Of a stretch of 58,396 nucleotides of DNA, positions 5,654 through 44,837 are shown piece after piece. This DNA comes from Myxococcales bacterium. Its GTDB lineage: Bacteria; Myxococcota_A; Polyangia; Polyangiales; Polyangiaceae. The stretch lies in contig JAAFHV010000022.1 of assembly GCA_013297655.1 (NCBI GenBank), positions 1 to 58,396 of the forward strand. The letters are read 5' to 3'. Under the pieces are notes generated by a model, which had not been told where the DNA came from, did no database searches, and was given only the letters and a program-made list of their open reading frames with translations. Within the stretch, counting starts at the first letter, position 1. Each line of letters starts with the position of its first letter. Both the position numbers and the translations under genes were made by a program.

Positions 5654-7774
5654 CTACGGACAGGGCTCGGCCGCGGGCGGGTCCATCGAGTAGACACGCC
5701 CATCGTTCGTAGCGAAGTAGAGCTTCGTGCCAGCGCGAGCGACCGCGTAGGTCGTGTTGTCCTGAGCGCCCGCCGTGGGGAAGAGTGCTTTCGGCGTGAC
5801 TGCGCGCGCGATGCAAGTCGAGACGGCCATAGGCCCCGCCGCGCCCCCACCCCAGTAGACGTAGTTGGCGTCGGCCGCGAGACTCGTTGATCCTACGCCG
5901 CTGCCGGACGGGGCGGGGACCTGGTTGCTTGTCAGTAGTATGCCAGGGGTAGGACCGGCATCGGCGTATCGCTTTCGGAAAATTGCACCAGTGCCAGCGT
6001 CACTGAGGGTGAAGAAAGCCTCGGTCGCGTTGGTCGCGATATCTATCTGGCTCTGGTGATTGTCGTACGGTGCCGGAAAAGTCGAGAAAATACCCGTCGG
6101 CTGGTCCGCCGCAGTGAGATCATTGAGCGTAATTCTCAGCGAGGGCTCATTCGTGATGTACGCTAGAAGGAGTCGATTGAGCGGAGTGAAGGCAGCTCCC
6201 GCAACGACCGCCGGAGACGGTAGATTGAAGAGCGGGCGTGAGCTAGATACCGGAGTCTCTAGCTCGAGCTCGACCGGCGCTGCTGTGACAATCTGTCCAC
6301 CATTCGAGGCGACGCCACCAACGTAGTTGATCCCTTTTGTCACGAGTGCGGAACTGAGCGTGTAACACCAGCGACCCGTCTTCTGAACGATAACATGCGA
6401 AGTACATGCGCTGTTGCCTGCTGCCGCCAGTGACACTCCGACGCCGCCCGTGTCCTGAATGCCGCCCGCCGACGGAAGCATGATTTGCTCGGGCGTGGAT
6501 GGGCCCCGGGCGTCGGTGAACGCAAGGCCAATGTCACCGCGAATCCAGACTCGGTCGTTGGCAACCGCGAGCTTCCGAGGCCGCTGAAGTTGACTAAGGG
6601 TCGCCAAGAGAAGCGGCCCGGGCGGTGCCGCGTCAGGCTTGTTCGCGTCCGCTGGCCCTGCGTCCGGCAGCACTACGGGCGCCCCGTCGTTCGGATTGGG
6701 CGGCTCGGCAGAGTAATACGGGGCCCGATTGGGATCCGAAGGCCCCTTGTCTCTCACCGCACCAAAGAGCCCGTTGCAACGCGGTCGGGAGGCCATCTTG
6801 GCGTCGCAGTTGGTGGCGACGGCGATTCGGGTGGAGGCAATGGTCTTGTCTGCCGCGCCGATGCGCTTGCAGACCTGGGGCGCGAACGTAAACGTGCTGG
6901 TCCCCTCGTCGTACTTGCCATCCCAGTCGAGGGGCGCAAAACACGCTTTGCCGGTACATCCGGTAGCGTCGTTGCGCACGACTGCGAAGTTTACGGTCTT
7001 CGGCCCGGAGAGGCCCGCCGGGATGGTTACCTTGCAGTTCTGATAGTCGGCTTCTTTGAGCGTCTGTTCGTTGGCAAAACACGCCTCGACATCGAAGCAC
7101 GTGCCGCCCTCGGCGACGCCGTTCGAGTCGACCCCGAGCGCGCCGCCGTATACCTCGCGGACGAGATCGCCGGACGAGATTTTCTGGAGCACGGCGGTCG
7201 CGTCGACGCACTCGCCGTCGGCCGACGTTTGCCCTTGCGCACAAGGTGAGACGTATCCCGGGAAGAACGAAGCGAACTCGGAGAAGGAGTTGTCGCCCGG
7301 CACGGCGCGAATCTTCACGTTGCCGGCGGTGCCCGCGGTCTGCGTGGTGGGCCCAGCGCCCGCGGGTTTGTGCGTGGAGGCGAGCCACGAGAGGGGCACT
7401 CGGAGGAGCGAGAGCTGGCCACTCGGCACGGTGGTAATCGCGTCGCGCACGACCTTGAGGGAGCCATTCTTGTAGCCGGCGACCCTCACGTGAATGGGCG
7501 TGGAAGCGTCGCTCGGCTGCAGGATCGAGAGCGTGCCGGGAAGCTTCGCCGGCTGGTCGGCGGAAGTGGGCGTACGAAGGCTCGTCTTAATCTCGCCTGC
7601 GACACCTACGTAGAGGCCAAGCTCGTCCAAGTCGCCATCGACGACCATGTCGGTCGTCACCGCGACGATGACCGCCGTAGGCTCGCGAGAGCAAGCCACG
7701 TGGCCGGCGCACAATCCTGCCGCGACGAGGGCAAGGGCACACGTCGCGCGTCGGTGAAGAATCGGGAGCGCCAT
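5654..7774 (-). CDS. Mosaic lipoprotein paralogue 2 (706 aa)
   Basis: Second copy of the tandem family. The signal peptide is nearly identical to that of copy 3 (MALPILHRRATCALALVAAG), with Cys28 after GHVA. The first ~350 residues are close to identical to both neighbours, including at the DNA level, up to the DPNRAPYYS motif. The following linker and the segment up to about residue 625 differ strongly from the other copies (for example GNSACTSH ... RWCYTLSS). The last ~80 residues match again (YVYWGGGAAGPMAVSTC). The 27-bp spacer on its downstream side is nearly the same as the spacer before it, which points to duplication of a gene-plus-spacer unit. The function is unknown; a cell-surface, ligand-binding role is a guess. 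Confidence 0.85.
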   Translation of the reverse strand: MALPILHRRATCALALVAAGLCAGHVACSREPTAVIVAVTTDMVVDGDLDELGLYVGVAGEIKTSLRTPTSADQPAKLPGTLSILQPSDASTPIHVRVAGYKNGSLKVVRDAITTVPSGQLSLLRVPLSWLASTHKPAGAGPTTQTAGTAGNVKIRAVPGDNSFSEFASFFPGYVSPCAQGQTSADGECVDATAVLQKISSGDLVREVYGGALGVDSNGVAEGGTCFDVEACFANEQTLKEADYQNCKVTIPAGLSGPKTVNFAVVRNDATGCTGKACFAPLDWDGKYDEGTSTFTFAPQVCKRIGAADKTIASTRIAVATNCDAKMASRPRCNGLFGAVRDKGPSDPNRAPYYSAEPPNPNDGAPVVLPDAGPADANKPDAAPPGPLLLATLSQLQRPRKLAVANDRVWIRGDIGLAFTDARGPSTPEQIMLPSAGGIQDTGGVGVSLAAAGNSACTSHVIVQKTGRWCYTLSSALVTKGINYVGGVASNGGQIVTAAPVELELETPVSSSRPLFNLPSPAVVAGAAFTPLNRLLLAYITNEPSLRITLNDLTAADQPTGIFSTFPAPYDNHQSQIDIATNATEAFFTLSDAGTGAIFRKRYADAGPTPGILLTSNQVPAPSGSGVGSTSLAADANYVYWGGGAAGPMAVSTCIARAVTPKALFPTAGAQDNTTYAVARAGTKLYFATNDGRVYSMDPPAAEPCP

Positions 7775-37547: not shown

Positions 37548-38696
37548 ATGCCCGTTACGCTCGTTGTCCTCCCGAAGAACCATTCGAATCCGCCGGACTC
37601 GCGTGGCGCGGACAGCGGGCACGGTGAGAGACGAACGAGACCCGACGGACCGAACGATCCCGTCCCCGTCCCTCGCAGCGCGTTCGAGCAAACGTTGCCC
37701 GAGGGGGAGACCGCGGTCACGTTCGAGGGCACGCGGATCGTGCTCGGACGCGGAGCTTCGTCCGACTTGGTCCTCCCCGACGCGAGCGTTTCGTTGCGTC
37801 ATGCATCCATTCGAACCAGCGGCGCCGAGTACGTGCTGCTCGACGAAGGAAGCACGAACGGCACGTTCTGCGGCGAGACGAGGCTCACTCCCAACCTCCC
37901 GAAGCCGCTCAAGAACGGCGAGCGCATCCGCCTCGGGCGCATTTGGGTCGAGGTTCGGATCGGCGCCGCCGCCGTCACGCGGGACGTCGCGAACACCACA
38001 CGTGACCTCGCCCTCGCGATGGTCGCCGAGATGCTCGTCGCCGGCGGGGGTGACACCACCGCGCGCGTCGAGGTGCAAGGAGGCCCCGACGGGGGCGCGA
38101 CGCTCCGCCTCGCGATCGAAGCGCGTCACTACATCGTGGGCCGTGGCGAGGCGTGCGATCTCAAAGTAGCGGACCCCGATTGTTCACGGGAGCACGTGAT
38201 TTTCCTGCGGAGAGGCGCGCAGACGTTCGTCGTCGACCTCGGGTCGAAGAACGGGAGCTACCTTGGGAGCCATCGCCTCGCAGCGCACGTGGAGACGCGG
38301 GTTCACTCGGGTCGTCTCGTGCAAGTGGGCCGCACGGTGCTCCTCGTCGAAGAGCCCGCGGAGCTCGCCCTCGCCGGCCTCGAGAACGTGTCCGACGAGG
38401 TGCTGGGGGAAGGGGACGTGCCCCTCGCGCCGCCGGTCTCGTCTCGGGCGAAGCCGCACTCGGGGAGCCACGATCCGCCCGCTTCGCGCGCCGACATCCC
38501 GCCGCAATCGACGGCCGCGATCGCGGAGGTGCCGAGGTCGCTCCCCAGGCCTCCCGAGGCGCCACCCTCTCGTCGCCTCGCGCCGCGGAAAGGAAAGGGG
38601 ATCAGCGCCGCCGACGTCGTCGTCGTGCTCGTCGCGCTGTCGCTCATCGGGCTCTCCGTCGCGGGGCTCTACTGGATCGTCGGTCCAGGAAAGTAG
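37548..38696 (+). CDS. Double-FHA-domain protein with C-terminal membrane anchor
   Basis: This 382-residue protein has two forkhead-associated domains that bind phosphothreonine. FHA1 is at about 55-130 (IVLGRGASSDLVLPDASVSL, then RHASI and GSTNGT). FHA2 is at about 190-270 (YIVGRGEACDLKVADPDCSR, then EHVIF and GSKNGS). A Pro-rich stretch leads to one membrane helix near 355-378 (VVVVLVALSLIGLSVAGLYW) at the C-terminus, so the FHA domains face the cytoplasm. It would dock proteins phosphorylated by Ser/Thr kinases such as the one at 10988-12670, but no partner is adjacent. ATG 37548 follows the gshB stop by 3 bp. The first residues are low complexity. Confidence 0.88.
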   Translation: MPVTLVVLPKNHSNPPDSRGADSGHGERRTRPDGPNDPVPVPRSAFEQTLPEGETAVTFEGTRIVLGRGASSDLVLPDASVSLRHASIRTSGAEYVLLDEGSTNGTFCGETRLTPNLPKPLKNGERIRLGRIWVEVRIGAAAVTRDVANTTRDLALAMVAEMLVAGGGDTTARVEVQGGPDGGATLRLAIEARHYIVGRGEACDLKVADPDCSREHVIFLRRGAQTFVVDLGSKNGSYLGSHRLAAHVETRVHSGRLVQVGRTVLLVEEPAELALAGLENVSDEVLGEGDVPLAPPVSSRAKPHSGSHDPPASRADIPPQSTAAIAEVPRSLPRPPEAPPSRRLAPRKGKGISAADVVVVLVALSLIGLSVAGLYWIVGPGK

Positions 38697-39564: not shown

Positions 39565-40485
39565 ATGTCGTCCCTCTACGAACGCATCTTCCCAAGATGG
39601 CAGAAAGACTCGTTTTTCCGACCAACGGGGAGGCCGGCAGAGGGGGGAGTCACGCTCACGTGGCTCGGCACCGCGAGCTTCGTCGTTCGAACCGCGACGA
39701 CGACGGTGCTGGTCGATCCGTACCTGACGAGGCTCTCGATCCCGGGGCTCCTCTTTTCTCACGAGCCGGACGAGCGCGCGATCTTCTCCGTGCTGCCGCC
39801 GCGAGTGGACGCGATCGTGTGTGGCCACTCGCACTACGACCACGTCGCGGACGCGCCTCGCATCGCGAAACGAACGGGCGCGATGCTGGTGGGCTCGGAG
39901 AGCACCTGCGCGTGGGGCGCAGCGGAGGGCCTCGACGAGTCGCGCCTCGTGCGTATCTCGCCGCGTGGCGGGAGCGTCACCGTCGGTGACATCGAGATTC
40001 GTATGGTGCCGAGCCGCCATGGAAAGGCCCTCTTCCACCGCGTGCCGCTCCCCGGCTTCGTCGATGGCGCGCCGAGGCTCCCGCAGCCGATTTGGGCCTA
40101 CAAGATGGGCGGCGCGTTCGGGGTGCTTCTCCGCACCGAGGGCTGCTCGATTTACCACAACGGGAGCGCCGATCTCGTAGACGCCGAGCTTCGTGGGCTC
40201 TCGGCCGACGTGCTCCTCGCGTGCCTCGCCGGTCGTCGCGGGACGCAGAGCTACCTCAAGCGCCTCGTCGATCATCTCGCGCCGCGGCTCATCGTTCCCA
40301 CCCACCACGACGCCTTTTTTTCGCCGCTCTCGCAGGGGGTGCACCTGCTTCCGGGCATCGATTTGCAGGGTTTCCTCTCCGAGTGCGCCGTCTATGGGAA
40401 CGGCGCGTCGCGCGTCACTGTCGACTACGAAGAGGCCCTCTCGATTCCTCGCGGTGACGCTCGCGGCGCCGTGCTCGTCTCCTGA
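39565..40485 (+). CDS. Metallo-beta-lactamase-fold hydrolase (NAPE-PLD/UlaG-like)
   Basis: This 306-residue protein has the MBL metal motif HSHYDHV (His88, His90, Asp92, His93), preceded by LTWLGTASFVVRTATTTVLV as in NAPE-hydrolysing phospholipase D and UlaG-type enzymes, and later SRHGKALFHR, YHNGSADL and PTHHDAFF with further His ligands. The NAPE-PLD-like group cleaves N-acylphosphatidylethanolamine; the similarity is general rather than specific. No signal peptide. It is divergent from the glycerophosphodiesterase with a 66-bp gap, which supports a role in phospholipid head-group turnover (inference). ATG 39565 is the first Met. Confidence 0.85.
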   Translation: MSSLYERIFPRWQKDSFFRPTGRPAEGGVTLTWLGTASFVVRTATTTVLVDPYLTRLSIPGLLFSHEPDERAIFSVLPPRVDAIVCGHSHYDHVADAPRIAKRTGAMLVGSESTCAWGAAEGLDESRLVRISPRGGSVTVGDIEIRMVPSRHGKALFHRVPLPGFVDGAPRLPQPIWAYKMGGAFGVLLRTEGCSIYHNGSADLVDAELRGLSADVLLACLAGRRGTQSYLKRLVDHLAPRLIVPTHHDAFFSPLSQGVHLLPGIDLQGFLSECAVYGNGASRVTVDYEEALSIPRGDARGAVLVS

Positions 40486-40573: not shown

Positions 40574-43500
40574 ATGCCTTCGCGCGGATGGAGAAGTAGA
40601 ATCCCGGCGTCCGTCTTGCGCTTCCTTCGTTCTCTCGCGAAATCGTGTCTCTTCGGTGCCGTGCTCCTCGTGGGAACAATCCCCGCGACGGACGCGCGCG
40701 CGGCGTTCGATCCGGAGCTCGACTACTCGACGATCGAATCGAAGCACTTTCGCGTCACGTACTACCGCGGCCTCGAGGACGTCGCGAAGCGGGTGGCCGA
40801 CTACGCGGAGTCTGCCCACGAGACGCTGAGCCCCACCATGGGCTGGGACCCGGCAGGGAAGACCGAGCTCCTCATCGGCGACGCGACCGACGGCGCGAAC
40901 GGGTCGGCGACCGCGATCCCGTACAACGCGATCCGGCTCAACATCACCGCGCCGGAAGATCTCTCTCCTCTCGGCGACGTGGACGACTGGCTCCTTGCGT
41001 TGATCACCCACGAGCACACCCACGTGCTCCACCTCGACGACATGAGCGGGCTCCCGGTCGTGGTCAATCGGGTGATAGGCAAAGTGCTCGCCCCGAACCA
41101 GGTGCAGCCGCGTTGGATCTTGGAGGGCACCGCCGTCTACATGGAGACGTCGCGCACGAGCGGCGGGCGTCTTCGCTCCAGCCTGTGGAACATGTATCTG
41201 CGCACTGACGTGCTCGAGAAGAACTTCGCGACCCTCGACCAATTCTCGAACTACGTGCGGCGCTGGCCGCAGGGAAATATTTGGTATCTTTACGGCTCGT
41301 TCTTCATCGATTGGGTCGCGCGCACCTACGGTGAAGAGGCCATTCGTCGCATGGCCGAGGAGTACGGCCAGCACGTGGTGCCTTGGGGCCTATCCCGCAC
41401 CATGCGGCGGATCACGGGAAAGACGTGGGACGAGCTCTACGAGGGCTTCCGCGCCGACATGATCCGCAAAGCGGTAGACGTGCGCAACGGCGTGGTCGCG
41501 CGCGGCATTCGCGAAGGGGTTCGCCTCTCGTTCCATGGGCAGAACGCGCGTTATCCGCGTTGGATCCCGAAGGGCACGTATCCCGATCACGAAGGCGCGA
41601 TACTTTATTATCGCGAAGACGCGGACACCCGCGCCGGCCTCTACGCGGTGGACGTGGTGCGCGACGCGGAGGGGGCGCCGATCGTGGGCAAAACCGCGCC
41701 GTCGACGGAGCTCTTGGTGCGCACCGCGGGCGAGGCCGCGGCGAGCTTCGCGCCGGACGGTAATCTCTATTACAATACGCCGGCGTTCTTCTCGAACCTG
41801 TTCGTTTACAACGAGCTTTACCGCGTCGAAAAAGGCAAAAAGACGCCCACCGCGCTCGACGGCGTACCCGAGCGCCTCACCGACGGATACCGCGCGACCG
41901 ATCCGAGCATCTCCCCCGACGGGCGGAGCGTGACGTACGTGACGAACCATCACGGCACGCGCTATTTGCAAATCGCGGACGTAGGCCCCGATGGGGTGAC
42001 GAACACGCGTTCCCTCGTGCGGAGCGCGCCCTACGAACAGGCGTTTACCCCGCGCTTCTCTCCGAACGGAAGGACCGTCGCTTATAGCCATTGGGCGAAG
42101 GGTGGATACCGCGACATCTGGCTCGTCGACGTCGCTTCCGGCACGGTGAAGGAGGTCACACGGGACCGCGCCGTCGACGGCGGGTGCTCCTTCTCCCCCG
42201 ATGGGCGCACGCTTTATTACCACTCGGATCGCAGCGGCATCTCGAACGTCTACGCGTATTCGATCGACAGCGGGCGCACCCAGCAAGTCACGAACTTGCT
42301 CACCGGCGCGTACTACCCGGAGGTGAGCCCCGACGGCAAGACGCTAGCCTATGTAGGATACACGAAAGACGGCTTCGACCTCTTCGCGATGAAGCTCGAT
42401 CCGGCGCGCTTCTTGGAGCCGCTGCCTTACGTCGACACCCGGCCCTCGCCGCCGCACCCGATGATGACCGGGCACTACGAGCCGAAGCCCTATTCACCTT
42501 GGCGGACCCTTCGCCCGCGGCGTTATTCGCTCTCCACGTCGCCCGGCAATTTCGGCCAGCTCGTCACCGCGAGCGTCTCCGCGAACGACATCGCGGGGCT
42601 CCACGGGGTGGCCGCCACGTTGACGCAAGAGCTCGAGCGCCCGGAGCTGCAGGGGAGTCTCTCGTATGCCTATTACGGGCAGAGGTTCGATCCCTCGATC
42701 TCGATCTCGCGCAGCATCGCCCCGCGGCCCTACCAAATCGGCGGACAGAAGCTCGCCGCGGTGCAAGAGACGACCAGCCTCTCGACCAGCCTCGCGTACA
42801 ACCGGACGCGCCTCTACGACTCGCAGTCGTACTCGATCGGGTACTCCCTCCAGAACTTCGGCGTGAAGCTGCCGACGAACGACGTGCGCCTCGATCCGTA
42901 CGAGACGCCGCAGGTGATTCGCACGGGCCTCGCGGGGGTGATCTCGCTCGCGTACGTGTACTCGAGCGCGGAGCGTTACCTGAAGAGCGTAGGGCCCGAG
43001 CGGGGGTCCACCCTCGGGATGAACGTGAGCATGGCCCACCAGGCGCTCGGCGGCGACTTCGAGGGCATGAGCGCGAGCGCGTCGTTCGCGCAGTACTTCA
43101 CGATGCCGTGGCTCTCGCATCACTCCCTCGGGCTCCGCCTCGGCGCCGGCACGAGCGGCGGATCGTACCCCGGCCGGGCGGCCTATTTCGTGGGCGGGTT
43201 CGTCGATTTGCCCGTCATCGACACCGTCGCCGAGTCGCTCATCCAGAGCGGGATCGTGCTGCGCGGCTACCCCGCCGGGTTTCAGGGGGGCTCCCACTTC
43301 ACGCTCTTCAACGCCGAGTATCGGTTCCCGATCGTGAACTTCGATCGCGGCTCGTCGACCTTGCCGTTCTTCTTGAATCGGCTCACCGGCGCGGCGTTCT
43401 TCGACTACGGGAGCGCGTTCGACAGCTTCGCCGACGCAAAGTACAAATCGGGCACCGGGGCCGAGCTCTGGCTCGACACGTACCTCGGGTACGGCCTCGC

Positions 43501-43585
43501 GATGACCTTCCGCCTCGGCTACGCGCGGGGGCTCGCGAGCGAAGGAATCGACAAGATTTACGGGGTCGCGGCCGTCCCGTTCTGA
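40574..43585 (+). CDS. Exported HExxH protease fused to TolB-like propeller and beta-barrel
   Basis: This 1003-residue exported protein has a signal peptide ending near ATDARA. Residues about 45-340 are a peptidase MA-like gluzincin domain with HEHTH (146-150: LITHEHTHVLHLDD) and the third ligand Glu184 (WILEGTAVYMET). Residues about 360-620 carry WD40/TolB-like repeats (SPDGRSVTYVTNH, SPNGRTVAYSH, SPDGRTLYYHSD, SPDGKTLAYVGY). The last ~380 residues are a surface-antigen-type beta-barrel (YSIGYSLQNFGV, LFNAEYRFPIVNFDRG) ending in Phe. The arrangement suggests an outer-membrane barrel carrying a periplasmic or surface protease. The start ATG 40574 is chosen because it begins the signal peptide. 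Substrate and export partner are unknown. Confidence 0.87.
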   Translation: MPSRGWRSRIPASVLRFLRSLAKSCLFGAVLLVGTIPATDARAAFDPELDYSTIESKHFRVTYYRGLEDVAKRVADYAESAHETLSPTMGWDPAGKTELLIGDATDGANGSATAIPYNAIRLNITAPEDLSPLGDVDDWLLALITHEHTHVLHLDDMSGLPVVVNRVIGKVLAPNQVQPRWILEGTAVYMETSRTSGGRLRSSLWNMYLRTDVLEKNFATLDQFSNYVRRWPQGNIWYLYGSFFIDWVARTYGEEAIRRMAEEYGQHVVPWGLSRTMRRITGKTWDELYEGFRADMIRKAVDVRNGVVARGIREGVRLSFHGQNARYPRWIPKGTYPDHEGAILYYREDADTRAGLYAVDVVRDAEGAPIVGKTAPSTELLVRTAGEAAASFAPDGNLYYNTPAFFSNLFVYNELYRVEKGKKTPTALDGVPERLTDGYRATDPSISPDGRSVTYVTNHHGTRYLQIADVGPDGVTNTRSLVRSAPYEQAFTPRFSPNGRTVAYSHWAKGGYRDIWLVDVASGTVKEVTRDRAVDGGCSFSPDGRTLYYHSDRSGISNVYAYSIDSGRTQQVTNLLTGAYYPEVSPDGKTLAYVGYTKDGFDLFAMKLDPARFLEPLPYVDTRPSPPHPMMTGHYEPKPYSPWRTLRPRRYSLSTSPGNFGQLVTASVSANDIAGLHGVAATLTQELERPELQGSLSYAYYGQRFDPSISISRSIAPRPYQIGGQKLAAVQETTSLSTSLAYNRTRLYDSQSYSIGYSLQNFGVKLPTNDVRLDPYETPQVIRTGLAGVISLAYVYSSAERYLKSVGPERGSTLGMNVSMAHQALGGDFEGMSASASFAQYFTMPWLSHHSLGLRLGAGTSGGSYPGRAAYFVGGFVDLPVIDTVAESLIQSGIVLRGYPAGFQGGSHFTLFNAEYRFPIVNFDRGSSTLPFFLNRLTGAAFFDYGSAFDSFADAKYKSGTGAELWLDTYLGYGLAMTFRLGYARGLASEGIDKIYGVAAVPF

Positions 43586-43637
43586 CCATCGCGCAAAGAA
43601 CTTGGCCGCCGGGTCCGGTTTCTACGAGGGTGGAGGC

Positions 43638-44159
43638 ATGCGCTGGTATCCCCTCCTCGCCCTTCCGCTCCTCGTCGCGTGTGCTGGTCAGTCGCGCCCC
43701 GCGCGGATGCAAGAGGCCGCGATGGAGGTGAACCTGAACGCTCGCTTCGGTCGCATGGAGCTCGCCGGCGAGCACGTCGCGCCGCAAGGACGCCCCGCGT
43801 TCTTCGGGCATCGCAAGGTGTGGGGCTCGCGCGTGCGCATCGTCGACTCCGAGCTCATCGGCGTCCGTTTCTTGAAGGACGACGCGGAGGCCGAGGCCCA
43901 GGTTCGCATCGCGTGGCAGCCCGTCGACGACGGCGACATGCGCATGACCACCGTGAAGCAGACCTTCAAAGAGATGAAGAGCGGCTGGTACCTCGTCTCC
44001 GAAGAGCGCTCGGAGGGCGACGTCGGCGTGTTCGGCGAGAAGCCCGAGTCGCCCAAAGACGCTCCGGTGCAGATGCCGCGAAAGACGAAGTTCGACACCA
44101 TCCGTCTCGGCCAGTCGAGCGCGTCGCCTTCGCACGAGAACACGGTCGACGATCCCTGA
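43638..44159 (+). CDS. Small lipoprotein
   Basis: This 173-residue lipoprotein has lipobox VAC (LPLLVACAGQSRPAR). GGAGG ends one base before the ATG 43638, and the signal peptide begins there; a longer frame from 43602 is less likely. The mature part has a two-layer beta-like pattern (EVNLNARFGRMELAGEHVAP, VRIVDSELIGVRFLKDD, VRIAWQPVDDGDMRMTTV). I know of no named family, though similar lipoproteins occur in myxobacteria. It lies 52 bp after the protease-barrel gene on the same strand and may form a unit with it. Confidence 0.75.
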   Translation: MRWYPLLALPLLVACAGQSRPARMQEAAMEVNLNARFGRMELAGEHVAPQGRPAFFGHRKVWGSRVRIVDSELIGVRFLKDDAEAEAQVRIAWQPVDDGDMRMTTVKQTFKEMKSGWYLVSEERSEGDVGVFGEKPESPKDAPVQMPRKTKFDTIRLGQSSASPSHENTVDDP

Positions 44160-44195: not shown

Positions 44196-44837
44196 GTGAC
44201 GAAACGCGCCAAGGCCCTGCGCCTCCTCGTGTACGACGCCACCTGCACGGGCTCTGGCTTGTCGCCCGGCCTCTCCGACGCATGGAGCGCGGGGGCTCGT
44301 TTGTATCGCGCGCTCGGTCGCGTCGACGCCGCCCGTGGTGTCCGTAACTGGCGGGAAGCGCTCAATTTTTTGACGACGTACGGCGACGATACGCCGCTCG
44401 GCGAGGTCCAGTACTGGGGCCACGGTACGTTCGGGAAAATCTGGATCGCGCGCGACGCGGTGGACCGCGCGCGGCTCGACGATCCCACGCTCGCGCCGGA
44501 CCTCGATCGCCTCGCGTCGCGGCTCGCAGAGTCGCGCGCGCCGAACCACGAGCCCCTGTTCTGGATACGCACCTGCGAGACGATGGGCGGGCCGAGCGGT
44601 CACGCGTTCGCCAAAGCCCTCACGAGCCGCCTCGGTTGCCGCGTCGCCGGCCACACCCACGTCATCGGGGTGCTCCAGAGCGGACTCGTCGCGCTACGGC
44701 CCGGCGAGGAGCCCGGGTGGCCGCTCGAGATGGGCCTCGGGCCGAAGGGCGAAGAGGGTCAAGGCCTGCCGTCCACGCCCGCGGCGCCGAGCACGGTGCA
44801 CTTCCTCACCGGCGCGCTCCCCGAAGACCTCGCCTGA
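44196..44837 (+). CDS. Putative clan CD (caspase-like) protein, 213 aa
   Basis: This 213-residue soluble protein starts at GTG 44196. It has a beta strand ending in YWGHG (His76-Gly77) and a second strand ending in WIRTCETMGG (Cys127), then GHAFAKALTSRLGCRVAGHT. A hydrophobic strand followed by His-Gly and a later one followed by Cys is the dyad pattern of clan CD cysteine peptidases and resembles DUF4347-type proteins, in which the sequence after the second strand is also G-rich. The enzyme class is an inference; the Cys could be non-catalytic. It follows the lipoprotein by 36 bp in the same direction, so it may be part of the same transcript. Confidence 0.6.
   Translation: MTKRAKALRLLVYDATCTGSGLSPGLSDAWSAGARLYRALGRVDAARGVRNWREALNFLTTYGDDTPLGEVQYWGHGTFGKIWIARDAVDRARLDDPTLAPDLDRLASRLAESRAPNHEPLFWIRTCETMGGPSGHAFAKALTSRLGCRVAGHTHVIGVLQSGLVALRPGEEPGWPLEMGLGPKGEEGQGLPSTPAAPSTVHFLTGALPEDLA

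Follow-up and report, generated by a model that had tools for sequence, protein, structure and literature searches.

The window, a stretch of 58,396 nucleotides of Myxococcales DNA, carries at positions 40574..43585 (+) a gene that runs from ATG to stop and encodes a protein of 1003 amino acids (hereafter the window protein), in which three domains follow one another on a single chain: a gluzincin-like metallopeptidase domain, a TolB-like β-propeller and an Omp85-type outer-membrane barrel. The frame is taken to be coding because its GC content at codon positions 1, 2 and 3 (0.61, 0.49 and 0.86, respectively) fits GC-rich coding DNA, and the gene is present in one copy in its own genome. Residues 1–43 (40574..40702, +), read by eye, form a putative Sec-type signal peptide with a basic n-region and a hydrophobic core, in which ARA precedes AFD; most relatives also begin with a hydrophobic N-terminus that closes with A-x-A, and Sec export of the protein is probable. 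Pfam finds PD40 (E 2.4e-19, in four stretches) and Omp85 (E 4.5e-5), and the AlphaFold2 model of the full-length protein, calculated from an alignment of 17 rows (the window protein and the 16 named relatives described below), has a mean pLDDT of 69.2 and a pTM of 0.65. The open reading frame, the Pfam matches, the model and the fold matches together bear out the proposal of an earlier note on this DNA that three modules are joined in one polypeptide.

A short-peptide-pattern scan of named genomes yielded 16 loci that encode near full-length relatives of 42–53% identity, their titles naming Polyangiaceae, Sorangium, Polyangium, Labilithrix and other Myxococcales or Deltaproteobacteria. Aligned with the window protein and with 80 further loci, these make up 97 rows (24–53% identity to the window protein), which represent 96 distinct loci, as L013 and L057 are one locus (99.9% identical); removal of rows above 70% identity leaves 86, with a median pairwise identity of 31%. 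The 80 further loci were hand-picked from match lists, favouring matches uncut by contig ends, and because they were picked in this manner, the presence of HExxH in 80/80 of them is uninformative on genomes without the gene. Across 282 Myxococcota genomes, a search with the whole protein gave some match in 279, many of these being propeller-only, and a protease-domain profile matched 247 at E ≤ 1e-3 and 201 at E ≤ 1e-30 (hand count). The best identity drops with kinship, from about 40–53% in the same family to about 28–36% for full-length matches elsewhere in the phylum, a gradient such as vertical descent would give.

The predicted peptidase domain comprises residues 46–312 (40709..41509, +), as judged from an 85-member alignment, from clan-MA matches in relatives and from Foldseek. 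It is the most conserved part of the protein in the 97-row alignment, with 16 invariant columns, compared to one in the propeller and two in the barrel. The gluzincin motif to which the earlier note had drawn attention is present as HEHTH at residues 146–150 (41009..41023, +), comprising the expected zinc ligands H146 and H150 and the expected catalytic residue E147, followed by E184 (41123..41125, +), the expected third zinc ligand, in the context W-x-x-E-G-x-A-x-x-x-E. All four residues are identical in 97/97 rows, which rules out a chance HExxH, and a further 12 positions are likewise invariant (97/97): D103, N109, G110, P127, G169, G185, E191, G198, R199, P232, Y238 and G241. Y238 (41285..41287, +), the first tyrosine of Y-L-Y-G, is a candidate transition-state residue: in the YxxG motif of M1 peptidases, a tyrosine stabilizes the transition state, and a weak profile match (E 0.93) places the corresponding Y-x-x-G opposite PYVKG of an M1 aminopeptidase. 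The pattern of invariance in this domain is that expected of an active enzyme. HExxH with a downstream glutamate ligand, the hallmark of the gluzincin type, is found in 97/97 rows; the spacing of M1 peptidases, HExxH-x18-E, is not, as H150 and E184 are separated by 33 residues in 91/97.

No Pfam peptidase family matched the window protein at E ≤ 1. When 85 relatives were scanned singly against Pfam at this threshold, matches were obtained to Peptidase_MA_2 (PF13485; 20/85, best E 9.1e-7), M48 (PF01435; 13/85, best E 3.6e-5), BSP (14), DUF1570 (12), M9 (7) and M61 (6), none of which matched the window protein itself; Peptidase_MA_2, BSP, M48, M9 and M61 are HExxH peptidase families of clan MA, whereas DUF1570 carries no such assignment in its name. 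Placement of the domain among the clan-MA gluzincins is well supported at the level of sequence, and its assignment to one named family is not supported. The models are less informative in this region: in the full-length model, pLDDT drops below 50 near the active site, and the N-terminal domain modelled alone (pLDDT 55.5) is worse than within the full-length protein. With this low-confidence isolated domain as query, Foldseek returned gluzincin-type folds (best E 3.2e-3) from M1 enzymes, M9 collagenases and TFIID entries, the matched TFIID chain presumably being the M1-like TAF2. The VIA-align 2 superpositions of the isolated domain were poor (Z at most 8.8, with an rmsd of 14.7), the rows either having an rmsd near 15 or covering only half the domain; families missing from these rows may still be similar. 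The protease fold is weakly supported by the predicted structures and clearly supported by motif conservation together with the clan-MA family matches in relatives.

Residues 313–611 (41510..42406, +) follow as a six-bladed TolB-like β-propeller, recognized by PD40 and by sequence matches to TolB chains (E 1.1e-29). The earlier note had counted four or more propeller repeats, a number with which both the four PD40 stretches and the six modelled blades agree. The modelled propeller (residues about 311–611) superimposes on TolB with a Z of about 25 over 240 aligned residues (rmsd 2.3), the six-bladed propeller being the extent of the likeness: the TolB N-terminal domain is absent from the window protein. 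Scored with the TolB profile TIGR02800, the protein reaches 112.2 bits, compared to a cut-off of 343.15, and over profile positions 195–355 only; within its own genome, this propeller is the best TolB match (113 bits). The same genome contains a second TolB-like open reading frame of 519 aa (G000:C246), also below the TolB cut-off. A role as TolB substitute in the Tol-Pal system was set aside, given the score far below the cut-off and the other TolB-like open reading frame.

The last ~357 residues (647–1003; 42512..43582, +) are modelled as an Omp85/BamA-type outer-membrane barrel with a C-terminal phenylalanine. Sixteen strands can be counted in the model (residues about 647–1001), which matches BamA and TamA barrels, including that of Deinococcus BamA (8xnb; Z 22.5, rmsd 4.3 over 325 aligned residues), as anticipated by the earlier note, which had placed a barrel at the C terminus. 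With the Pfam cut-off for Omp85 at 24 bits, the match scores 23.6 bits when the protein is scanned and 24.7 bits, above the cut-off, in a six-frame scan of the genome; 13/17 members have an Omp85 match at E ≤ 1. The final residue is F in 61/97 rows and Y in 17/97. R897-G898-Y899 (43262..43270, +), which we take to be the loop-6 (V)RG(F/Y) motif of Omp85 barrels, is highly conserved (R in 95/97, G in 97/97, Y or F in 94/97). The earlier note had named two findings that would speak against its reading, namely a C terminus without a barrel and an HExxH not conserved in homologues; both were examined and neither occurred. No POTRA domain precedes the barrel: in the model, the propeller extends to about residue 611 and the barrel begins at 647, and there is no POTRA match in Pfam. 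The barrel is described as the defining feature of the Omp85/TpsB superfamily by Heinz & Lithgow 2014 (PMC4104836), and the window protein has both the 16-stranded barrel and the loop-6 motif of that superfamily; membership in its POTRA-bearing subfamilies (BamA, TamA, TpsB and PlpD) was rejected on account of the missing POTRA.

Protease and barrel are tightly coupled. In an architecture search across Myxococcota of the kind the earlier note had called for, a barrel-only profile matched 92 of 121 genomes at E ≤ 1e-8, and in every one of these 92 the protease domain is found at E ≤ 1e-30, so that at these two thresholds a barrel without the protease occurs in 0/121 genomes. Of the other 29, nine lack a protease match and 20 have a weak one (E between 1.5e-21 and 6.5e-4); nine of these 29 negative genomes were assigned as barrel-negative by elimination among the matches listed. 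A divergent paralogue lineage retains all three parts, with five open reading frames of one family keeping HExxH, the downstream glutamate and the barrel, and in five more that were fetched alongside the paralogues HExxH and the glutamate are also kept. Outside the phylum, a Salinibacter ruber protein of 633 aa (WP_118831798.1, plasmid pSR116), named ‘basic secretory protein-like protein’, carries the same gluzincin domain, which scores 61.9 bits with the family profile, and then the same kind of propeller, but no barrel. The protease–propeller pair thus exists without a barrel, and the comparison suggests that protease and propeller may be the working unit, with the barrel as an added anchor or platform. 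Salinibacter ruber aside, the other matches listed in the plasmid searches were mostly to the propeller.

The neighbouring genes are less constant. Upstream lies a gene for a metallo-β-lactamase-fold protein (PF13483 by Pfam; 39565..40485, +), a homologue of which is the immediate same-strand neighbour in 5/96 other loci (four independent, L013 and L057 being the same). An open reading frame with a PilZ domain is found in 27/96 other loci, in 26 of them upstream and on the same strand. No neighbour is conserved across the phylum among the 96 other loci, many of whose flanks end at contig ends or at 4 kb. Six-frame clustering of the flanks also gave large clusters from antisense frames, which were ignored. 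The assignment of a partner from the neighbourhood was given up, the neighbours being too narrowly conserved. As to the rest of the genome, it also encodes BamA-like and TamA-like proteins and holds five M48 matches above the cut-off. BepA has an HExxH motif and an M48-TPR make-up, and with these five matches present the idea that the window protein stands in for a missing BepA is not supported. More generally, a gap in quality control is not evident, because the genome has BamA-like and TamA-like proteins as well as M48 peptidases.

Parts of this architecture have described counterparts. Heinz & Lithgow defined a WD40-Omp85 subfamily whose propeller is closest to TolB, and suggested that its members resemble a BamA-BamB fusion (PMC4104836). 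The window protein shares with this subfamily, as described there, a TolB-like propeller N-terminal to an Omp85 barrel and the absence of POTRA, a likeness of described architecture rather than of compared member sequences; by contrast, the word ‘peptidase’ has 0 occurrences in the main text of that paper and none is named there for WD40-Omp85 proteins. The view of the earlier note that such modules are usually separate therefore does not extend to the pairing of propeller and Omp85 barrel. Another comparison concerns PF00149, the calcineurin-like phosphatase family. Proteins of the ‘Metallo’ Omp85 subfamily also bear an N-terminal metal-dependent enzyme on an Omp85 barrel, but according to the description in PMC4104836 this enzyme belongs to PF00149 and no propeller is described, whereas the window protein has an HExxH gluzincin. 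PlpD, too, is a fusion of an N-terminal enzyme with an Omp85 barrel, in this case a patatin lipase together with POTRA in place of gluzincin and propeller (PMC11116518); the same article (2024) calls the WD40-like and metalloprotease Omp85 subfamilies not well characterized. In E. coli, BepA is described as a zinc peptidase that acts on proteins under assembly at BAM (PMC8423444, PMC13067283). It resembles what the window protein is proposed to be, namely a periplasmic zinc peptidase for outer-membrane proteins in assembly, yet is depicted in these sources as a separate, soluble, BAM-binding protein with neither a fused barrel nor a fused propeller. No description of a gluzincin–propeller–Omp85 protein was recognized among titles and abstract openings in open-access PubMed Central (a set without preprints, subscription papers and supplements), and the available text of a Myxococcus xanthus outer-membrane survey (PMC3222651) held nothing informative on this protein. 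The propeller–barrel half is already known; what seems to be new is the invariant peptidase in front of the propeller and how closely it is tied to the barrel throughout Myxococcota.

From these features we infer an enzyme activity, an orientation and a substrate class for the 1003-residue protein: it may be an outer-membrane-anchored peptidase that performs BepA-like trimming or quality control while fixed to a BamA-type barrel, a reading to which we assign a probability of roughly 0.5. After Sec export, the 16-stranded Omp85-type barrel would insert into the outer membrane, with the TolB/BamB-like propeller beneath it as a docking platform. The N-terminal gluzincin would bind zinc through H146, H150 and E184, use E147 as its general base and Y238 as the likely transition-state residue, and cleave proteins on the inner side of the outer membrane. 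Most probably it would trim outer-membrane or surface proteins, or control their quality, while these are being assembled. By analogy, the peptidase most likely faces the periplasm and not the cell surface: the N-terminal domains of Omp85 barrels lie in the periplasm, and PlpD, whose enzyme had earlier been placed on the outside, is described in PMC11116518 as keeping this domain in the periplasm. The periplasmic side is favoured because of the even strand number, the N-terminal position of the enzyme and this precedent. The earlier idea of a self-anchored outer-membrane protease is thus supported, with the qualification that the protease more likely faces the periplasm than the cell surface; for the assembly factor that the earlier note offered as an alternative, the findings speak neither for nor against.

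The same barrel could instead be the catalytic part, as in BamA, TamA or FhaC, so that the protein would be an assembly or translocation factor for the insertion or export of a client, aided by propeller and peptidase as accessory domains that handle and process this client, in effect a fused BamA-BamB-peptidase. The conserved loop-6 RGY motif and the BamA/TamA-like barrel are in keeping with this idea, as is the comparison of WD40-Omp85 proteins to a BamA-BamB fusion made in PMC4104836; however, the interval between the propeller, ending at about residue 611, and the barrel, modelled from 647, contains no POTRA, conservation is strongest in the peptidase and not in the barrel, and PlpD, as presented in PMC11116518, shows that an Omp85 barrel may serve otherwise. 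On balance we regard such a factor as unlikely, although a credible contender.

The loci related to the window protein come from myxobacteria, which are predatory, and a self-anchored protease whose peptidase and propeller pass through or past the barrel could act outside the cell, for example to remodel the matrix or in predation. PlpD was at first proposed to be displayed on the surface, and Heinz & Lithgow consider display for the ‘Metallo’ Omp85 proteins (PMC4104836), but an even-stranded barrel with an N-terminal enzyme argues against it, the PlpD enzyme domain was detected in the periplasm only according to PMC11116518, and one conserved type in 92/121 genomes looks more like housekeeping than like a variable surface weapon, leaving this possibility distinctly improbable. 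Least plausible is a non-catalytic scaffold, a TolB-like envelope tether with the zincin domain turned into a binding module: that the propeller is the genome's best TolB match at 113 bits and that the window protein lacks a peptidase family match would fit, but every expected zinc ligand is invariant, as are the general base and Y238, and a dead enzyme is disfavoured because some of these site residues should be lost at 31% median identity.

For the family as a whole, the invariant zinc-peptidase site in a widespread propeller–barrel protein gives the group a biochemical activity that can be tested and probably links it to quality control by proteolysis at the outer membrane. A review in Chem Rev 2026 (PMC13067283) lists among its open questions the way in which BepA cleaves stalled clients and the means by which related peptidases reach theirs; a natural barrel–peptidase fusion fixes the geometry and could help to answer both. 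More speculatively, and in our estimation with rather poor odds, the protein might be a proofreading machine in one polypeptide, fused since early Myxococcota, in which the BamA-type barrel assembles clients and the BepA-type peptidase cuts those that fail or need maturation, with a BamB/TolB-type propeller alongside. If true, an outer-membrane insertase would here be coupled to a protease, in contrast to E. coli, where the parts are separate. As a conserved, mostly single-copy envelope protein, it is also a target for Myxococcota genetics.

A divergent second lineage of the three-domain protein (gluzincin-like domain, TolB-like propeller and Omp85-type barrel) occurs at five loci, L147-L151, in the Myxococcota genomes G013, G023, G033, G018 and G072. 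These proteins are ~1000 amino acids long and carry CHE-x-x-H where the window protein has THEHTH, with the downstream glutamate retained. A protease-propeller protein without the barrel is encoded on Salinibacter ruber plasmid pSR116 (locus L144, 3581-5482), where it adjoins a gene matching serine carboxypeptidase S10 (5917-7398). PF00149 is a calcineurin-like phosphatase family. It is this family on which, in Heinz and Lithgow 2014 (PMC4104836), the term metalloprotease for the ‘Metallo’ Omp85 group is based, and the label is repeated in the 2024 PlpD paper (PMC11116518).

The genome from which the window comes also harbors two related ORFs, at loci L138 and L139, each combining an N-terminal lipobox-like stretch with an Omp85 barrel; at L139, the barrel ORF is followed by an ORF that, judged by eye, is TamB-like.

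Directly downstream of the gene, the window encodes a probable small lipoprotein (43602-44159, +) with no Pfam match. Frames homologous to it occur near the gene, on one strand or the other, in 23 of the 96 other loci, which leaves the gene frame of these homologues uncertain in several loci. Another protein encoded in the window (44196-44837, +) has a weak DUF4347 match (E 0.0036), and no homologue of it was found near the gene among the other loci examined.

Upstream in the window, the gene at 37548-38696 (+) adjoins a glutathione synthetase gene; its product carries two FHA domains and, at the C-terminus, a transmembrane-like stretch. A same-strand gene for a PilZ-domain protein (for example, L016:4820-5854) lies upstream in 26 of the 96 other loci; in the window, this position is occupied by a metallo-beta-lactamase-fold gene, with a GDPD gene farther upstream. 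A connection to c-di-GMP may exist.
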